Assembly (NCBI RefSeq): GCF_030685535.1
Contig: NZ_CP131601.1
Location: forward strand, 806,001-870,000
DNA: 64,000 nucleotides
Reading direction: 5' to 3'
Origin: Photobacterium leiognathi
Lineage (GTDB): Bacteria > Pseudomonadota > Gammaproteobacteria > Enterobacterales > Vibrionaceae
Below, piece after piece: positions 54,829 through 63,565 of this stretch; position 1 is the first letter of the stretch, and each line of letters begins with the position of its first letter. The notes under the pieces were generated by a model, which was given only the letters and a program-made list of their open reading frames with translations, searched no databases and had not been told where the DNA came from. The position numbers were made by a program, and so were the translations under genes.

Positions 54829-55764
54829 ATGACAGGTATTTTGGATTCAGTGAATCAGCGGACACAGTTAGTCGGTCAAAACCGATTAGAACTGCTGACA
54901 TTTCGATTAAACCGACGTCAGCGTTACGGTATTAACGTTTTTAAAGTGAAAGAAGTGCTGCAGTGTCCACAGTTAACTGCAATGCCAAACTTACATCCTC
55001 TTATTAAAGGTGTGGCTCATATCCGTGGGCAAACTATTTCCGTTATTGATATGAGCTTGGCAACAGGTGGGCGTCCAATTACGGATTTGACGAACTGCTT
55101 TATTATTATTTCTGAATTTAACCGCTCAGTGCAGGGGTTTCTGGTTTCATCTGTCGAGCGCATTATTAATATGAACTGGGAATCGATTTTGCCACCACCA
55201 CAAGGTGCAGGGCGCAGTAATTACCTTACTGCTGTAACAGAAATCGATGGTGAATTGGTTGAGATTTTAGATGTAGAGAAAATCCTTGATGAGATCTCAT
55301 AGGTTAATACCAATATCTCAGGTACGGTATTAGAAGATTTAGTTGAAAATGGCCCTGCAGTTCGCCGCGTACTGGTTGCTGATGATTCAACCGTTGCACG
55401 TAAGCAGGTTCAACGTGCGATTGAAGCGATCGGTTGCGAGTGTGTATTGGTAAAAGATGGTAAAGAAGCCATCATGAAATTGCGTGAAATGGCAGAGCAA
55501 GGTTCGATTTATGAGCAGTTGTCATTGATTATTTCTGATATTGAAATGCCAGAAATGGACGGTTACACCTTAACGGCTGAAATTCGAAACGATCCAAAAT
55601 TAAAAGATCTGCATGTGATTTTGCATACATCTCTCAGCGGTGTTTTCAACCAAGCCATGGTTGAGCGCGTTGGGGCTAATGCTTTTATTCCTAAATTTAA
55701 CCCTGATGAGTTAGGCCGCGCTGTTAAAGGTGCGATGCCAGATGTGCCAGCAACATCAGCGTAA
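54829..55764 (+). pseudogene. cheV: cheV interrupted by one in-frame TAG
   Basis: CheV couples a CheW-like domain to a response-regulator receiver. The full frame has 311 codons before the TAA at 55764, but codon 158 is TAG (55300-55302). Before it is a complete CheW domain (TFRLNRRQRYGINVFKVKEVL...GHIRGQTISVIDMSLAT-type) ending VEKILDEIS; after it, in the same frame, VNTNISGTVLEDLVENGP and a complete receiver with DD in VLVADDSTVARKQ and the phospho-Asp in IISDIEMPEMDGY. If the stop is real, only a CheW-like half is made, since the receiver has no good ribosome site. CAG to TAG is the simplest origin. Located between flgA and cheR as in vibrios. Confidence 0.85.
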
Positions 55765-55831
55765 TTACCCAAAATTATTATAAATTATTGAGCATTTAAT
55801 GCCGAAACGTACTGACAAAGAAGAGTTGTAA

Positions 55832-56659
55832 ATGACAGCAGTAACTGTAAATGATCAAGAATATCGTGAGTTTTGCCGATTTCTTGAAACTCAATGTGGC
55901 ATCGTGTTAGGCGATAGCAAGCAATACTTAGTGCGTAGTCGTTTAAGTCCGTTAGTGAATCGTTTTTCTTTATCATCGCTTTCCGAATTACTACAAAATG
56001 TGATCGCTGGACGTAATCGTGAATTACGTATTGCGGCTGTAGATGCGATGACAACCAATGAAACGTTGTGGTTCCGTGATGGTTATCCATTTACTGTGTT
56101 AGCAGAGAAAATTTTACCTGAATTAGCGGCAAACAAGCGCCCAATTAAAATTTGGTCCGCTGCGAGCTCTTCAGGACAAGAGCCGTATTCGATGGCAATG
56201 ACGGTATTAGAAACACAAGCTAAGCGTCCAGGGTTCTTACCTTCCATTCAGATCACGGCAACAGATATTTCTCAGACCATGTTAGAAACTTGTCGTGTAG
56301 GCGTGTATGACAACTTAGCGTTAAGCCGAGGGTTATCCCCAGAGCGTCGTCGGATGTTTTTTGAAGACAACGGTGATGGTAAAATGAAGGTGAATGCAAA
56401 AGTTAAGCAAATGGTTAACTTTAGGCCGCAAAACTTAAAAGACAGCTATGCACTGCTGGGTAAGTTTGACGTTATTTTTTGTCGTAATGTACTGATTTAT
56501 TTCTCACCTGAAATGAAAGCCAAAGTGTTAAATCAATTGGCGGCAAGTTTAAACCCAGGCGGATACTTATTCCTTGGGGCATCGGAGTCGTTAACGGGAT
56601 TAACCGAACAATTTGAGATGATCCGCTGTAATCCAGGTATCATCTACAAACTGAAGTAA
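55832..56659 (+). CDS. cheR: chemotaxis protein methyltransferase CheR
   Basis: Methylates glutamates on chemoreceptors with AdoMet. 275 residues: N-terminal helical domain (about 10-65), methyltransferase domain with KIWSAASSSGQEPYSMAM (about 108-125), TATDISQTMLETCR, FDVIFCRNVLIYF (about 212-224) and the GYLFLGASESL end. Normally followed by flgB; here about 6.4 kb of foreign DNA intervenes. Confidence 0.95.
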   Translation: MTAVTVNDQEYREFCRFLETQCGIVLGDSKQYLVRSRLSPLVNRFSLSSLSELLQNVIAGRNRELRIAAVDAMTTNETLWFRDGYPFTVLAEKILPELAANKRPIKIWSAASSSGQEPYSMAMTVLETQAKRPGFLPSIQITATDISQTMLETCRVGVYDNLALSRGLSPERRRMFFEDNGDGKMKVNAKVKQMVNFRPQNLKDSYALLGKFDVIFCRNVLIYFSPEMKAKVLNQLAASLNPGGYLFLGASESLTGLTEQFEMIRCNPGIIYKLK

Positions 56660-56717
56660 TTAAAAGAGCGCTACACCAGCTATTTCTAGTTAAAAACGTA
56701 TAAGAGTCTGGATGGTG

Positions 56718-56766
56718 AGTGAATTTAATAATCCTTACATGGACTTATCAGATTCACTTTTTTTTA
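56718..56766 (+). terminator. terminator downstream of cheR
   Basis: AGTGAAT (56718-56724) and ATTCACT (56752-56758) with a 27-base loop, followed by T8. May be the working cheR terminator after the insertion. Confidence 0.6.
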
Positions 56767-56829
56767 TATGTGTATAAAAAAAGCATATAAAAAATAGAAC
56801 TACCAAAAGGTAATAAAAACTAATCCATA

Positions 56830-56853
56830 TGAGTTAGCCGAATAGCTAACTCA
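56830..56853. repeat. palindrome TGAGTTAGC-N6-GCTAACTCA
   Basis: Perfect nine-base arms (56830-56838, 56845-56853). TGAGTTAGC differs by one base from TGAGGTAGC at the right edge (63061-63069). Could be an end structure of the island or a weak terminator. Confidence 0.55.
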
Positions 56854-56961
56854 GTTTTGGACAGAAGTGTTTTAGTGCTAATAGCGATTCAGAATATAAA
56901 ATCGGTTATGACTGCATTTAAGAAAGGCATTAATGAAAGTATTGAAGTAAATTGAAGCGAT

Positions 56962-57001
56962 AAAAAACCCCTATCACCTTTGAATACGATGAAAGGGGTT
57001 T
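56962..57001 (-). terminator. terminator of the GMT cargo gene
   Basis: On the minus strand AAACCCC, an inner CCTTT/AAAGG stem, then GGGGTTTTTTA. It lies about 150 bases past the cargo stop. Confidence 0.8.
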
Positions 57002-57148
57002 CAATGTACAACCTAGACCTAACTATTATAGCTACCACTTACCATTAATCAATAAACATCAAACCTTTTGATTTCGATATTGGTTAACTTAAAAGACTGG
57101 TTATGACACGAAAATTTGTGTTCTAGGACATTTATGGACAAAAACGTG

Positions 57149-57793
57149 TTATATAGATATTCTCTGCCACTGGAATTCAGAGCCATTCAGCATTGCTCCA
57201 TAGATGATTTTTATGCTGACCTGAATTTCTTTTAATAGATACCAATATGCCCCATTTTGGTTCATGAACCTTTGTCTTAGTGAAGCAAGAGTGTCGTCTA
57301 ATTTACCTTGATAAAACACTGGTCGAATCAGATCATGATATTTTTCATATGGTAAATTTTTAGAAACAATCTCACCATTTTCAAGATACTTTACTTTTAT
57401 TGATTCCGAATGCACACCGTTTAAGTGACTGTGTACCCATTGGTTTCTAATGTTTTGAATGAATATCTGTTCTTCTTTTGAGTATTGCTGCAACAAAGCC
57501 TTTACAGCATCACAAAAAACATTTGCTTGAGCCAAGTACCTAGGTATGTGAATTAGTCCAAGTTCATTTGCTTCCTGTTCGTATTTTTTTATTAACCTAC
57601 TTTGAGCTACAACAGTATCAAATAGAGAAGCTAACCATATGATACTTAGTTTGTTTTTTAGTTCTTGTTCACGTTCTAACTCATCACTGAAAATGTAAAA
57701 GCCCCAAGCTTCAATGCATCGGAGGTTATCTTGAAACAAAGAGTGCACTTTATTTATCAATTTCAATTCTTTACCTTGATACTTCGTTTCCAC
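57149..57793 (-). CDS. HEPN-motif protein, GMT cargo gene (candidate RNase)
   Basis: 214 residues, GTG start at 57793 with GAGAGG five bases upstream (an earlier GTG overlaps that site). Almost wholly helical. Residues 114-125 read NIRNQWVHSHLN; R116-N-x3-H121 is the R-x4-H motif of HEPN ribonucleases, where Asn often follows the Arg. Aromatic and acidic residues around residues 28-45 (IEAWGFYIFSDELEREQELK) and a long helix SIIWLASLFDTVVAQSRLIKK precede it, as expected for a four-helix HEPN bundle. I recognise no named family. HEPN proteins are common effectors in toxin-antitoxin and abortive phage defence. No antitoxin-like nucleotidyltransferase partner is next to it, so it may act alone. 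Confidence 0.65.
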   Translation of the reverse strand: METKYQGKELKLINKVHSLFQDNLRCIEAWGFYIFSDELEREQELKNKLSIIWLASLFDTVVAQSRLIKKYEQEANELGLIHIPRYLAQANVFCDAVKALLQQYSKEEQIFIQNIRNQWVHSHLNGVHSESIKVKYLENGEIVSKNLPYEKYHDLIRPVFYQGKLDDTLASLRQRFMNQNGAYWYLLKEIQVSIKIIYGAMLNGSEFQWQRISI

Positions 57794-58148
57794 TAACACC
57801 TCTCTATATGACAGTATATTAATAAGTATTCTTACTTTTATGAAAAAATATACTTATAAAATACCGATATTACACTCGATATAATCTATTAATATTATAA
57901 GGTTAATGGCACTTTCTTACACCTGCCGATTTGAAAAAGAGTGTGAAAAGTAAGAAATGAATTTAATCAGTCTTATTAAAAACAGAACTCATGCGATAAA
58001 TCACTGCGGATCATTAATCTGTTTATATATAAAGTAACTAAAACTCATCCCAAATCATATTTATAATATATGAATGAGTAAAAGGTCTAACGCACAATGG
58101 GGCAGTTATGAGTTAGGAAGCTAGGCATTAAGCTTCCTACATCAACCT
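57794..58148. other. gap between gmtX and the cargo gene
   Basis: 355 bases. Contains TTTCTTAC/GTAAGAAA (57913-57920 and 57950-57957) and, just past the gmtX stop, the perfect palindrome TAGGAAGCT-N8-AGCTTCCTA (58114-58139) without a T run. The AT-rich part before 57794 should hold the cargo promoter. No gene seen. Confidence 0.45.
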
Positions 58149-58820
58149 CTATACCTGAGCCAAAACTTTCTGAATAGCCAACACGAACCCATTCTTAAAC
58201 AGAGGACGACCATCTTCGTCTTTGACCGCTCCATATTTGGATACTGTCCAACCTCGCTGTGCCATTTTGTCTTCGTCGATGGCATCTTCTAAAGCCTCAA
58301 TGTCACCTTGCAGTAGAACACCATCTAACGACGGTAACACTTCAACGTCTTGATGAACCTGTTCAGCATGGATGACTTTATTGGGGCGCATATCGACAAC
58401 GACTTCCGCATTTTGTTTAAGGATACGGTTTTCAGCTTTTAGCTTATTTTTTTCAGCAATGATTTGACCAAAGACAGCTCTCATAGCAGGGTCATCTAAT
58501 CGCTTTAACAAGTCCATATCAGACGGTGTATCGAGCTTTCTGGACTGAGGTAAAGGCGGCTTTTTCATTGTGGTATTGGCTTTGGTCGCCCATGCATCAA
58601 TCAATAAACGAAAATGCTCACCCGTTTTGTTACGGATGCTAACTGTACCAACACCACCTTGGGCTTTTGATACTCGACCAATCGTGGCAATTGAGTAATC
58701 TTTTTCACCTGCATTAAATCGAGTTTCTAATATAGCATTTAGCTTATCTAAAGATTCTTGTGTACGGCTGGTTTTACCCGTTTTAAGGTCATTTAAAATA
58801 ACGTTAATATCAACCTGCAC
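58149..58820 (-). CDS. gmtX: gamma-mobile-trio protein GmtX
   Basis: Third core GMT protein, function unknown. 223 residues from GTG 58820 (AAGGAG nine bases upstream; an ATG at 58844 is also open). N-terminal half VDINVILNDLKTGKTSRTQESLDKLNAILETRF and SIATIGRVSKAQGGVGTVSIRNKTGEHFRLLIDAWA may be a DNA-binding helical unit; a coiled-coil stretch (IIAEKNKLKAENRILKQNAE) follows and the end is RGWTVSKYGAVKDEDGRPLFKNGFV. The overlap with gmtZ (11 bases) and place after gmtY-gmtZ support the name. Confidence 0.8.
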   Translation of the reverse strand: MQVDINVILNDLKTGKTSRTQESLDKLNAILETRFNAGEKDYSIATIGRVSKAQGGVGTVSIRNKTGEHFRLLIDAWATKANTTMKKPPLPQSRKLDTPSDMDLLKRLDDPAMRAVFGQIIAEKNKLKAENRILKQNAEVVVDMRPNKVIHAEQVHQDVEVLPSLDGVLLQGDIEALEDAIDEDKMAQRGWTVSKYGAVKDEDGRPLFKNGFVLAIQKVLAQV

Positions 58821-61452
58821 TTGGGAAGTCTCCTTTAACCACATTGGAAGTCAACGATTTAATTGAAATGCCATCTACAGGTGTATTGATGCTGTTTTCT
58901 AAAGCATGAATACCTGTTTCGAGTAGCTTGCTGTCTGCCATAAATTGCCCTAGCTCTAGGTAATTAGCGACTTGTTTATATCCATCCAATTTATCTGTTG
59001 GATTGGCTTGTAGAGCCATTTGGCGCATCATGGCGTTGGCAGCAATAAGTTGCTGGTCTTTATCAAGCATGAGTAGTTGTGGCATATAGCCCTTACGCAT
59101 CATAAAGCGGCTTAGGCTCTGCGTTCTACGTTCGATAGTCGGTGTTTTCTTAACATCATCGAGCATGTCAGGGTAAAACTCGGCATCCTCACAGAGTAAA
59201 GCAAGTTGCAATAGTTCTGATTCGGTTTCCATGAAGCCCACTTTAATGTCGCTTTCTGAGCCAACCGCAACGAGTTTATTGGCGGTATCGCTCTCAGTGC
59301 GACCTTGCTCGATTTCGATAATGCGACGAATCAAACCAAAGGTCGCAATCCAATCTTTCGTGTATTCATCAGCTTCAACCAATTGCTTCTCATATCGACG
59401 TTGAAGTGCTTGTAATTCATTATGTTGAGTAAACGGCTTGCCCTCAGATTCCGCTTCGTATTTGAGTTCATCCATTTTCTCAATTTCGCCCTCTAACTTG
59501 ACCGCTAAATTAGCCGCTTCGTGAGATTTATAACTCATAAAGTTCAGGTGAGCATTGAGTTCAGGAAGATAGCGCGCATCGGTAATGAACCAACGACAAC
59601 GCACACAGTTTTCAAAACCGTGAGGGACTGAGCCATAAACTCGTTTTGCTACATTGCTTGAGTCTATTAATAACTCACCGCCATTCCAACAGCCTGCAAC
59701 TGTTCTAGTTTCATCAGAGCGAACTGTATTACCACCCGCTAAACACATACCAATATGACGTTTTTCCCACCCCATCGGGTTTCGATTAACGAGTGCTGCT
59801 TCAACGGATTGACCATCGTTATACGCCATCTTGCATTTAATTTGACGCATTTCCGCATCTTTTAAGAATGCGCGAACACTCTTTTTTGATTTATCCTCAC
59901 ATCGCTTATCCGCTTCGGTCATTTTCTCTTTCATCACCGCAGGGGTAATCTTGTTGTAATAGACGGTCATAATCATGCGTGAGTGACCCGCTAATAACTT
60001 TGATACCACAGGCAAGGGTAAATTCGCGTCCATAATGTAACAGGTAATCAGAGAGACTCGGAGGCTGTGTAAGGGAAACTCTGTTTTTGTCTTATTTCCA
60101 CTTTTACTATAATCTTCACCATAGTCATGGACTAACCGCAGTGCTGTCCCGTCAGATAAGATATCACCAGATGCAAAAAGATGTTGCTCAAGTTGATGGA
60201 GTAGTTTGTACCACAATTTACCAATTACAATGTCTTGAACAGGCTTACTTCTATCGTCTTGTTTTTTTGCTGGGGCATCACGAAACAGAAAACAACTGTG
60301 ACCCATTGCGCTTAAATAGGCTTTCGACTTCATGTCTTTAGTGTGCTTTACCTCTAACGTAGTCCAGTCCGTCGGTTTGCTGATGGGGTTGTATTTTTCT
60401 TGCCAATTACGCAGTTTTTCGAGCCAATACAGCACATCTTCATTCTGCCAAGGGATTTCATAACCCCGCTCAAATTCATCCTTGTTTTGGTCTGCGGTTT
60501 TGTTTGTGCTGATGTACAAGCCCGTTGATTCAAGCCCTGTCGCATTGTCTTTAAATTGGCGGAATACGCCTTTGCTGTAATGATTTAAGGCAAAGCCATG
60601 CGGGTTTTTAATCCAGTTTCCCTTTTCATAGCGAAGTGTATCGGCTTCGCCACTATCGAGCATTCGCACCTGATAGGTACGCAGTGGTAGATGCAGCTTA
60701 ATGAGCAGTACCATACTGACGACAGGCGACCAGATTTGATGGATAACCGTGGAAACAGCAGATTTCCCCCCTTTAGGTGTACGTAAAACTTCTTTGCTGC
60801 GCCACACACAATCAGGGTCGGCTTTATCAATCAGGCTTTCATCCACCTCACACCAATCGCCATGTCTAGCACCTTGCCCTGTCTGCTTTTGCGCCCACGT
60901 CCAATCCGAAAAATGTCCTCTTGGCTTGGGGCATAAGATATGGCGCAAATCACAAATATAACGGTACGGCAGTGGGTTATAAACAGTTTCAGTGTTTTTA
61001 AGTTTGTGTTTTACTTGCTCAAAAGGATTGTTGTACAAGGGGATAGCTATGCCGTTATCGTCTATCTCGCTGAAATGAGCCTTTACTACCCAGTCGATGA
61101 ATTCTTTGCAGTAATTTAGCAACACTGATGTAGACTTGTTATCACTTCGGTTAGTCTTTTCCAGCAGAACACGCTTCAATTCATCGGTTGATGCTTGCCA
61201 GCCATTTTTACCCTCAAATAGACTCTTAACGTCTGATGTAAAAGGCACTGTGTCTACAAGATAAAGCTCGAAAAACACACACAAAGCATCAAGTTTTAAA
61301 TTCGTTCCTGAATCTTGAGCCTTAATCCATTCCTCAGCCAGTTGTCGCCATGTTTCCCATTTTTGACCATGATTATTTACCAACCACTGTAAGGTTAAAT
61401 CACTAGAGCGACCATCATTCTTTTTCTTTGTTTGTGTTACTTTAGTAGCCAT
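58810..61452 (-). CDS. gmtZ: gamma-mobile-trio integrase GmtZ
   Basis: 880 residues, the large second recombinase of GMT islands. A tyrosine-recombinase-like core near residues 430-500 contains HSLRVSLITCYIMDANLPLPVVSKLLAGHSR and MTVYYNKITP, giving HxxR, H and Tyr positions. A Cys-rich part (GMCLAGGN, VAGCWNGGELL, ENCVRCRWFIT, about 575-635) could bind zinc; the C-terminal third is helical. Its start overlaps the gmtY end by 11 bases. Presumed to work with GmtY in insertion or excision. Confidence 0.85.
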   Translation of the reverse strand: MATKVTQTKKKNDGRSSDLTLQWLVNNHGQKWETWRQLAEEWIKAQDSGTNLKLDALCVFFELYLVDTVPFTSDVKSLFEGKNGWQASTDELKRVLLEKTNRSDNKSTSVLLNYCKEFIDWVVKAHFSEIDDNGIAIPLYNNPFEQVKHKLKNTETVYNPLPYRYICDLRHILCPKPRGHFSDWTWAQKQTGQGARHGDWCEVDESLIDKADPDCVWRSKEVLRTPKGGKSAVSTVIHQIWSPVVSMVLLIKLHLPLRTYQVRMLDSGEADTLRYEKGNWIKNPHGFALNHYSKGVFRQFKDNATGLESTGLYISTNKTADQNKDEFERGYEIPWQNEDVLYWLEKLRNWQEKYNPISKPTDWTTLEVKHTKDMKSKAYLSAMGHSCFLFRDAPAKKQDDRSKPVQDIVIGKLWYKLLHQLEQHLFASGDILSDGTALRLVHDYGEDYSKSGNKTKTEFPLHSLRVSLITCYIMDANLPLPVVSKLLAGHSRMIMTVYYNKITPAVMKEKMTEADKRCEDKSKKSVRAFLKDAEMRQIKCKMAYNDGQSVEAALVNRNPMGWEKRHIGMCLAGGNTVRSDETRTVAGCWNGGELLIDSSNVAKRVYGSVPHGFENCVRCRWFITDARYLPELNAHLNFMSYKSHEAANLAVKLEGEIEKMDELKYEAESEGKPFTQHNELQALQRRYEKQLVEADEYTKDWIATFGLIRRIIEIEQGRTESDTANKLVAVGSESDIKVGFMETESELLQLALLCEDAEFYPDMLDDVKKTPTIERRTQSLSRFMMRKGYMPQLLMLDKDQQLIAANAMMRQMALQANPTDKLDGYKQVANYLELGQFMADSKLLETGIHALENSINTPVDGISIKSLTSNVVKGDFPSAG

Positions 61453-62929
61453 TGCGTTTTCCTAATTTTGGGGTTTTACCTGTGAACAATCCATCGGGGT
61501 CAATATCGTTAAAACCATGCTCGGTTAACACTTCCCAACTCGGTGTGCCGACTTGCTCAACGGGTTCTGTTGGGTTTAGGAGTTGTTGCGTTGCTGCATT
61601 TAAGCAACTTGTTACTTCTTTTGCTGTTGGTGTGGTATACACAGCTTGCGACTCTAAAGAGGCATGGTGTAAACATTTCTTAATCACAATTTCTGATACG
61701 CCAGCTTTACGTAGCCGTCTGCCGTAGCTGTGTCGGTGTGAGTGAGGGGATAAGCCATCGGCTTTACACGGCTTTAGCCCAATACGCTTTAAGCCATTAC
61801 GGTAGCTATCGTGGAACGCATTAAGCGTATAGGGATTGCCTGTATGTTCACGGTGGAAGCTCACAAAGGCATAAGGATGATTGCGCTCAACACCCGTCAG
61901 AAATCGAGTGTAGTCTTGCCAAAGTTTGGCAAAGACTTCACCAAAGACAGTCGGAAACCAGTGAACGTCCAGATATTCATCTTTGCTGTCGGTGACTCGA
62001 CTTTTCCAGCCCACACGTTTCTTACCCATGAGATCATTGCGGGGACTTAGTGCGTATTTCTCTTTAAGATAAGCAGCACGAGTTGTTTTACCTGAGCGTC
62101 CACGCCAGTTATTTGGGGCTTTACCGTCCTCTGGATGATAGATACGAACCATTACGCTATCAGGGTTAGACGGGTCGATTAAGACATCTTCAAGCCACAG
62201 GTGTAAAGCCTCTGACTCTCGCAAACCACCGCCATGCATGAGCAGTAAAATTAATTGGTCACGTAATGCAACCCTACGGTCTACTGCACCGCCTAAACCA
62301 TCGAAGTAAAACGCTTCAAAATAACGCTCAGGAAACTCTATCGCATCTTGTGACTGCTTACCCAACGGACGTTTTCCTTGAACGCTACGAGCATAACGAA
62401 CGGTTGAATTGATGTGCTTATCTTTGATATGACCGAGGAAGTTATGTTGATTTTTACGAAACCAAGCAGCGTAGTTAAGGCGTTGTGTCAAACTGTCAGC
62501 CTTAACCAGTGGATTCATGGAGATCGCACCGTGTTTCTCAGCTAACCAGTCAGTCACTTTACTTAGGGCATTAATGTGTAATCGGGCAACTTGCTTGCTG
62601 CAAGGCAACCAATACAACCCCGACGGATCTAAACCATCATCACCAATCGTGCCTGTGTATAACCGACTACTGAAATTCTCAAATAAGGATTGTGGAGAGT
62701 CAAAACCACTAGTGTTAGCAGCCATGTACTCAAGTAGAAGTTGCGTTGCCTTAACGTAATTACTAATGGTTGATTGACTCATACCATCACGTTTCAACTT
62801 CAAAACAAATTCAACCAATGGTTTTACTGGTTCTTTATTCTTATCAAGCAATACAGGTATCTCAGTAAACACCCCTGAATCATCCTGAACTACCTTTGCA
62901 TTAACCTTTACAACCTCCACTACACTCAC
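61442..62929 (-). CDS. gmtY: gamma-mobile-trio tyrosine recombinase GmtY
   Basis: 495 residues, first gene of the trio. N-terminal core-binding domain with MSQSTISNYVKATQLLLEYMA (about 50-70); catalytic domain with Arg in MHGGGLRESEALHLW (about 240), the HSHRHS box (HxxR, about 398-403), the second His in KKCLHHASLESQ and the nucleophile Tyr in AVYTTPTAKEV (about 432). All catalytic residues are present, so it should be active. GTG start at 62929 near the right edge of the island; promoter within 62930-63060. Confidence 0.87.
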   Translation of the reverse strand: MSVVEVVKVNAKVVQDDSGVFTEIPVLLDKNKEPVKPLVEFVLKLKRDGMSQSTISNYVKATQLLLEYMAANTSGFDSPQSLFENFSSRLYTGTIGDDGLDPSGLYWLPCSKQVARLHINALSKVTDWLAEKHGAISMNPLVKADSLTQRLNYAAWFRKNQHNFLGHIKDKHINSTVRYARSVQGKRPLGKQSQDAIEFPERYFEAFYFDGLGGAVDRRVALRDQLILLLMHGGGLRESEALHLWLEDVLIDPSNPDSVMVRIYHPEDGKAPNNWRGRSGKTTRAAYLKEKYALSPRNDLMGKKRVGWKSRVTDSKDEYLDVHWFPTVFGEVFAKLWQDYTRFLTGVERNHPYAFVSFHREHTGNPYTLNAFHDSYRNGLKRIGLKPCKADGLSPHSHRHSYGRRLRKAGVSEIVIKKCLHHASLESQAVYTTPTAKEVTSCLNAATQQLLNPTEPVEQVGTPSWEVLTEHGFNDIDPDGLFTGKTPKLGKRNGY

Positions 62930-63120
62930 TCTCTCTACCTTAATAACCTATATTAATTATAGTAAAGCAACTAGATTTAACAGTTAATAATAAACAAAAA
63001 AAAGACCTAAACTAATAGATCTTTTATAAGTCTTATATACTAATAGTCACTAGTAATAACTGAGGTAGCGTTTTTTGTTTTTATCGCGTTTTCATCTCAT
63101 CGTATTCTCATTTCTTAAAA

Positions 63121-63169: not shown

Positions 63170-63565
63170 ATGTCCATTTCGTTTGATAAAGCATTAGGGG
63201 TTCACCAGCATACGGTTGGCGTACGTGCAAAGCGTGCAGAAACCCTTGCGAGTAATATCGCCAATGCCAATACCCCAGGTTATAAAGCTAAAGATATAGA
63301 CTTTCAGCGTGCGCTTAATGCGGCAACATCTGGGGCAAATATTGGCCTAAGTCGAACGAATGGGCGGCATATTAATGCCACAACCCAAGTCACAGGTGAG
63401 CAAAAGTTCCGTGTGCCAACCCAACCTGATACTGGTGATGGCAATACCGTAGATGCACAACTTGAGCAAAACATGTTTATGCAAAACAGTATTGAATACC
63501 AAGCATCATTAGACTTTCTAGGTTCGAAGTTTAAGAACCTGAGCAAGGCACTGAAAGGGGAATAA
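63170..63565 (+). CDS. flgB: flagellar proximal rod protein FlgB
   Basis: 131 residues. Rod protein with the flagellar rod N-terminal motif ETLASNIANANTPGYKAKDIDF (about 24-45) and C-terminal helix EYQASLDFLGSKFKNLSKALKG. ATG 63170 is set by GGAGG upstream; the open frame starts 15 bases earlier. flgC follows after three bases. Confidence 0.95.
   Translation: MSISFDKALGVHQHTVGVRAKRAETLASNIANANTPGYKAKDIDFQRALNAATSGANIGLSRTNGRHINATTQVTGEQKFRVPTQPDTGDGNTVDAQLEQNMFMQNSIEYQASLDFLGSKFKNLSKALKGE

Follow-up and report, generated by a model that had tools for sequence, protein, structure and literature searches.

In the window, the 64,000-nt stretch of Photobacterium leiognathi DNA analysed here, cheR and flgB are separated by 6.5 kb (from the end of cheR at 56659 to the start of flgB at 63170), as a first-pass annotation made from the letters alone had estimated. 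Between them lies a 6,380-bp element whose leftward genes gmtY, gmtZ and gmtX overlap by 11 bp (gmtY/gmtZ) and 35 bp (gmtZ/gmtX), accompanied by one further gene (Table 1). When judged against the curated cut-offs of NCBIfam, each of the three proteins scored well over the threshold of its family, and Pfam placed a Phage_integrase domain in GmtY and an Integrase_2 domain in GmtZ. The element is a compact Gamma-Mobile-Trio (GMT) island, in which short imperfect inverted termini enclose gmtY, gmtZ, gmtX and one orphan gene; GMT islands were reportedly described by Mahata et al. (Nat Microbiol, 2024). The first-pass annotation had proposed such an island in near-minimal form with a single cargo gene, and had seen recombinase motifs in the first two genes. 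Both points were borne out by the family and Pfam matches, by the single ORF outside the trio and by the lack of the insert in testable relatives. Its lengths of 495 and 880 residues were also right, while the third protein, put at about 223 residues, has 231. The host belongs to the genus Photobacterium rather than to Vibrio sensu stricto, and a record of Photobacterium sp. SKA34 holds a GmtY 98% identical to that of the window.

Table 1. Features of the cheR–flgB locus of the window, and GMT insertions in other genomes that are given by position or handle.
Feature	Position	Strand	Evidence or remark
cheR, left-hand neighbour, with the target terminator	55832..56659	+	ORF; CheR profile 164 bits, under the curated cut-off of 435
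Split cheR terminator, 5' half (..AAAAGAGCGCTA)	56660..56673	+	contiguous with the other half in G033
Foreign 6 bp CACCAG, distal end	56674..56679		absent from the empty site
GMT element, 6,380 bp, trio transcribed leftward	56680..63059	-	termini placed by terminus motif and by alignment with the empty site
Distal terminus CTATTTCTAGT, an imperfect inverted copy of the gmtY-side terminus	56680..56690	+	
Terminator-like inverted repeat (AAACCCCT..AGGGGTTT) between distal end and cargo gene	56965..57001		by eye
Cargo gene, 214 aa (216 aa from an upstream GTG, 57149-57799)	57149..57793	-	RNQWVH motif (RNxxxH, HEPN-like)
gmtX, 231 aa	58149..58844	-	NF040692 244 bits, cut-off 40
gmtZ, large integrase, 880 aa	58810..61452	-	NF047926 1027 bits, cut-off 600; PF13009
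gmtY, tyrosine recombinase, 495 aa	61442..62929	-	NF040693 550 bits, cut-off 340; PF00589
Inner hairpin (weak) AAAAGA..TCTTTT, 34 bp in from the gmtY-side end	63000..63025		
gmtY-side terminus (ACTAGTAATAA on the + strand)	63049..63059	-	
CTGAGG, the 6 bp of the target itself, retained at the gmtY side	63060..63065		identical in the G033 empty site
Split cheR terminator, 3' half (TAGCGTTTTTT)	63066..63076	+	empty-site comparison, terminus motif
flgB, right neighbour	63170..63565	+	TIGR01396 112 bits, cut-off 59
CRISPR-repeat GMT ends of Psychrobacter G719	G719:C12 about 19366 and G719:C46		
greB-branch elements examined: G237, G247, G024, G152, G321, G023	L170-L181		split near codon 47/48

The best 30 cheR loci, taken from 53 genomes with a match, were compared with the window. 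In 28 of these flgB starts 151-356 bases past an anchor near the end of cheR, the remaining two being the window itself and one contig end, and the insert is absent from the cheR–flgB interval of all 28 testable relatives. In one sister genome (G033) the site is uninterrupted: alignment of the left flank runs to L031:7938 and that of the right flank begins at L031:7937, with 95.4% and 96.8% identity to the window, respectively, which gives an exact empty site. The borders proposed in the first-pass annotation (56675..63064) lie within 5 bases of those found here (56680-63059, plus the foreign 6 bases at 56674-56679). It had named a lack of GMT family matches, or presence of the genes at this locus in all relatives, as findings that would speak against an island, and neither was seen. 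Another member of the genus, G071, carries a stretch 94% identical to the window, which begins at the gmtY-side end and stops a little beyond gmtX, at another location and without the cargo gene of the window; its distal end has been lost beside an ORF that resembles, by eye, an IS3-type transposase. That the island is a fixed feature of the genus and no mobile insert at all is therefore extremely improbable, given the 28 relatives without it, the exact empty site at 95-97% identity in the sister and the G071 copy elsewhere; nothing was found in favour of this explanation. The empty site, the foreign 6 bp and the near-identical trio at another place in G071 are indirect signs that the element is mobile. 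As a separate observation, cheV, which lies beside cheR (54829-55767, + strand), is interrupted by a stop codon in frame, which separates a CheW-like part from a receiver part (both named by eye), and is open in the sister genome.

The empty target site lies directly behind cheR and reads GAGCGCTA CTGAGG TAGCGTTTTTT, an intrinsic terminator. The element stands at the centre of the dyad of this terminator, between its two halves. This insertion into the cheR terminator is absent from the first-pass annotation, and we judge it more interesting than the island itself. By analogy with other elements, the CACCAG at the distal end would be a fingerprint of an earlier site: in SEs, according to passages of PMC10214605, the 6 bp of the target lie beside the recombinase gene and the 6 bp of the donor at the far end, and Tn554 is said there to behave likewise. 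Just inside the gmtY-side end lies a further hairpin, which is weak in the window (6 pairs) and stronger in many relatives. Of the 19 elements examined, 17 have a perfect inner stem of at least 6 bp that starts 34-40 bp in from the gmtY end, a raw count that has no chance control and includes some elements near-identical to each other. The inner hairpin may restore termination after insertion, or it may belong to the recombination site. An inverted-repeat scan returned neither this hairpin of the window nor the terminator-like repeat at 56965..57001.

Outside the trio, the cargo gene is the only ORF that reaches 80 aa; any other ORF this long listed for the insert overlaps the trio genes. HEPN RNases carry an R-x4-6-H motif in an all-helical domain. 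A protein search returned four homologues of the cargo protein besides itself (45-61% identity), and RNxxxH is invariant in all five, the window's included. Profile searches gave no family match above cut-off; against the PADLOC model CARF_HEPN the match was weak (E 0.012). The AlphaFold (AF2) model is mostly helical with one strand pair (mean pLDDT 83, pTM 0.82). It had no Foldseek match at E<=0.001, and no HEPN-named entry was present among the 50 matches listed in each of two fold searches. Going by its motif, our guess, at about even odds, is that the cargo could be a HEPN-type RNase acting in defence or as a toxin. The competing view, that it is a neutral passenger or part of the mobility module, we consider possible at slightly less than even chance. 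It is favoured by the small number of homologues (four besides the protein itself), by the lack of the gene in any other genome among 329 of the family and 369 sampled from the class, and by the unrecognised fold. The invariant RNxxxH argues against it, as does the absence of the gene beside the 94% identical G071 trio and from other Vibrionaceae genomes with GMT islands, from which it follows that the gene is probably not needed for mobility. The first-pass description of the island as clean for assigning function thus holds in part: there is a single cargo gene, one with four homologues, no recognised family and no confident fold.

We found that the hairpin predates the insertion at all five sites checked, namely the window, eno-ygcG, cspE-crcB, an IncC plasmid and G165. 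The eno-ygcG and cspE-crcB hairpins are empty in E. coli K-12. In the island-free IncC plasmid the site reads AATAAGGGGGC CTGCTG GCCCCCTTATT, of which the Providencia island retains the gmtY-side half and the 6 bp. The G165 site is empty in five relatives, where the 6-nt loops vary and the stem stays paired. No empty site was found for G227, the relatives looked at being without that stretch. The target's 6 bp are found at the gmtY side in four cases (window, eno, cspE-crcB and IncC). The window and E. coli eno and cspE-crcB show the full arrangement, in which the far end carries a foreign 6 bp and the recombinase end the 6 bp of the target.

GmtY scored over its cut-off in 34 of 329 family genomes and 3 of 369 class-drawn genomes, the window's own genome being counted in both. 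Further GMT loci came from named genome contigs and from E. coli and plasmid records, with part of all loci examined. Both ends were read in 14 insertions, the distal end being located by the terminus motif in 13 and by a split CRISPR repeat in one; ends were not resolved in G071, G153 and further GMT loci such as L051, L113 and L047. The first search for distal ends used pairing of the arms, which is circular, and the terminus motifs were derived from those ends, so the motif-based ends are only partly independent; in G227, which has two motif matches, the pairing one was taken. Since the motifs go back to ends found by pairing, it is the five empty hairpins that constitute independent evidence.

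The flanks of 12 of the 14 insertions are compatible with one dyad centred on the crossover. As a measure of the stem we counted contiguous Watson-Crick pairs around the 6 bp, keeping the highest count among three registers (shifted by 0 or 1 base). Nine of the 12 have 9-12 contiguous pairs: 12 each at G030, G209, G253 and eno, 11 at G332, 10 each at G272, G165 and cspE-crcB, and 9 at G227. The window has 5, and a longer stem when G-U pairs are allowed; the CRISPR insertion, whose halves lie on two contigs, has 4 (7/10 pairs overall), and pL280 has 1 (9/10 overall). When right halves were swapped between loci (182 pairs), the maximum was 5 contiguous pairs, reached by three, which leaves the nine insertions far above the swapped range and the window, pL280 and the CRISPR insertion within it by contiguous stem. 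In the other two insertions, G304 (stem 3) and the Providencia IncC plasmid (stem 5), the flanks come from two different sites. A reading of the Providencia insertion as a single site was ruled out, as the empty plasmid shows that its distal flank is from elsewhere. Such mixed flanks, noted in two elements (L144 and L105), suggest that GMT copies have recombined with each other or that the DNA was rearranged once the element had inserted.

A run of T or A, defined as at least 5 T in the right 20 bases or at least 5 A in the left 20, lies beside 10 of the 14 insertions, as a raw count with no chance control. In these 20-base flanks there is no such run at G030, G209, G253 or the CRISPR repeat. 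The first three sites are palindromes, so 'terminator' is not the whole rule. Among loci read at the gmtY side only, a T-run is present in L097, L102, L039, L040 and L145/L120 (one plasmid kind) and was not found in G071, G153 or L143. A GMT island in the eno terminator, L117:19992-30451 of E. coli O111:H8 TW05614, carries genes annotated as multiubiquitin-domain and ThiF-family.

In Psychrobacter G719 the gmtY end joins one half of a CRISPR repeat that has the pattern TTTCTAAGTCAC CTATGC GGTGAGGAAG and that we take to be I-F-like; 15 intact repeats come next. On another contig of the same genome an array ends in TTTCTAAGTCAC CTATGC, followed by what is by eye a GMT-like distal terminus. If both ends belong to one element, its foreign 6 bp would equal a CRISPR-repeat centre, and its last home was probably a CRISPR repeat as well. 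The same gmtY-side junction in a CRISPR repeat is present in P. glacincola (G720:C25, about 10284). Matches to the CRISPR motif in Acinetobacter G722 were set aside as unrelated by eye.

In a GmtY tree of 47 rows, those labelled terminator (15), palindrome (4) and CRISPR (2) fall on one branch together with 10 unlabelled rows (support 95/98), and 12 greB rows with one unlabelled row form a separate branch (100/99). Labels were assigned by eye from gmtY-side flanks, including L083, which was called a palindrome and whose distal end was not found; so labelled, target type requires 3 changes on the tree, the least possible, against a mean of 15.1 for shuffled labels. Target type thus tracks GmtY phylogeny. 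In five of the six greB-branch elements examined, greB residues 1-47 lie at one end and residues from 48 onward at the other, with a full copy of greB between them, and the sixth has the full copy and the second greB part only, as if the element replaced the gene that it splits. GMT islands therefore have at least two targeting habits, replacement of a split gene and landing in a hairpin.

Elements of the same GmtY branch as that of the window sit likewise in terminators, plain palindromes and a CRISPR repeat, and the 6-bp rule, the centring on a dyad and the differing arms among related recombinases are all observed. Our main reading, to which we give a probability of roughly three in four, is that a compact GMT island has inserted across the dyad of the cheR terminator, that elements of its GmtY branch occupy many hairpins, and that the dyad is chosen over the sequence of its arms. 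For the mechanism we infer that GmtY and GmtZ, with GmtX, would cut 6 bp apart around the centre of the dyad and insert a circular copy carrying 6 bp from its previous home, in the manner of SEs and Tn554. The target would be picked more as a hairpin or dyad than by its arms, and such a choice would offer many landing places that cost no gene.

How the dyad is recognised is a matter on which the evidence divides. It is possible, at somewhat less than an even chance, that this branch is a structure-guided integrator which reads a folded hairpin, as a cruciform or single strand, at the centres of terminators and other dyads, and which in Psychrobacter has turned to CRISPR repeats, as if hopping from one to another. 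Dyad symmetry alone is no proof of this, as a folded hairpin and a palindromic duplex look the same in sequence. Ordinary site-specific integration, in which a loose core is read as double-stranded DNA and the hairpins are merely the usual dyads of recombinase sites, is a serious contender that we would hold at a little under an even chance. Tyrosine recombinases in general use inverted arms around a spacer of 6-8 bp, which the 6-bp crossover fits, and the sister branch aims at one gene, greB. In addition, 99% identical elements in Leclercia (L039) and E. coli (L117) have different flanks and similar right arms (GCTGGCC and GCTGGCA), and the common GCTGGC hints at some sequence preference. What such sequence reading does not readily accommodate is that right arms differ among Vibrionaceae elements close in the GmtY tree (GCGCTG, GCGGTC, GAAGCC, CTCCC and CTGCC), and that the targets of SE-6945 and SE-6283 are reported, in passages of PMC9345347, to be without inverted repeats. 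A selection artefact, in which insertion is random and only copies in intergenic terminators survive since no gene is broken there, agrees with the intergenic position of the terminator sites; survival explains neither the centring on dyads nor the insertion into a CRISPR repeat nor the split by GmtY branch, and we regard it as very unlikely.

Under our main reading, insertion across a dyad chosen over its arms, a simple landing rule could be used to find the exact ends of GMT islands, to trace a previous home through the foreign 6 bp and to predict targets. If the structure-guided version of it is true, very many terminators in any host would be usable as landing sites. Such a rule would also make the three genes a tyrosine-recombinase system for testing directly whether DNA structure or sequence is read, and at 6.4 kb the window element is small enough for work on the whole element. 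GMT islands move anti-phage and antibacterial genes between bacteria, according to excerpts of PMC12039261, and landing in hairpins suggests how islands that carry defence genes choose harmless landing places. Insertion of GMT islands into terminator hairpins is not described in the literature passages covered, which do not extend to the original GMT paper, and a search by title, itself no proof of absence, returned none on GMT or tyrosine-recombinase elements entering terminators. Provisionally, and within that literature, we regard the window element as a member of a known family and the hairpin-landing branch as an undescribed variant.

The window element resembles GMT islands in its three defining proteins, scoring over the NCBI cut-offs, in gene order and overlap, and in cargo beyond gmtX; unlike the islands as described, it is compact and has one orphan cargo gene. 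Tn554 has one preferred site, radC, whereas the GMT branch uses hairpins. The Tn554 family (TnpA, TnpB, TnpC) is similar by description in having three proteins and a 6-bp footprint (excerpts of PMC10214605). With SEs the element shares an operon of overlapping genes that encodes an ordinary and a large recombinase, termini that are imperfect inverted repeats, and the 6-bp rule (passages of PMC10214605), and the GMT inner hairpin may be compared with the putative terminator motif that a supporting-information legend of PMC9345347 marks in the attL of SE-6945. The two SE targets studied differ from that of the window, being those reported in the same passages to lack inverted repeats. Compared by organisation and not by protein homology, SEs, with their four core genes (intA, tfp, intB, srap), also differ from the three core genes and orphan ORF of the window. 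Group IIC introns and Tn7 land beside or in intrinsic terminators and spare genes, as the GMT branch does, but their enzymes are a reverse transcriptase and a DDE transposase with a target protein, respectively. The integron integrase is a tyrosine recombinase that acts on folded attC sites by structure over sequence. GMT recombinases may resemble it in reading structure more than sequence, which for GMT we only infer, and differ from it in that the integron integrase acts on attC cassettes.
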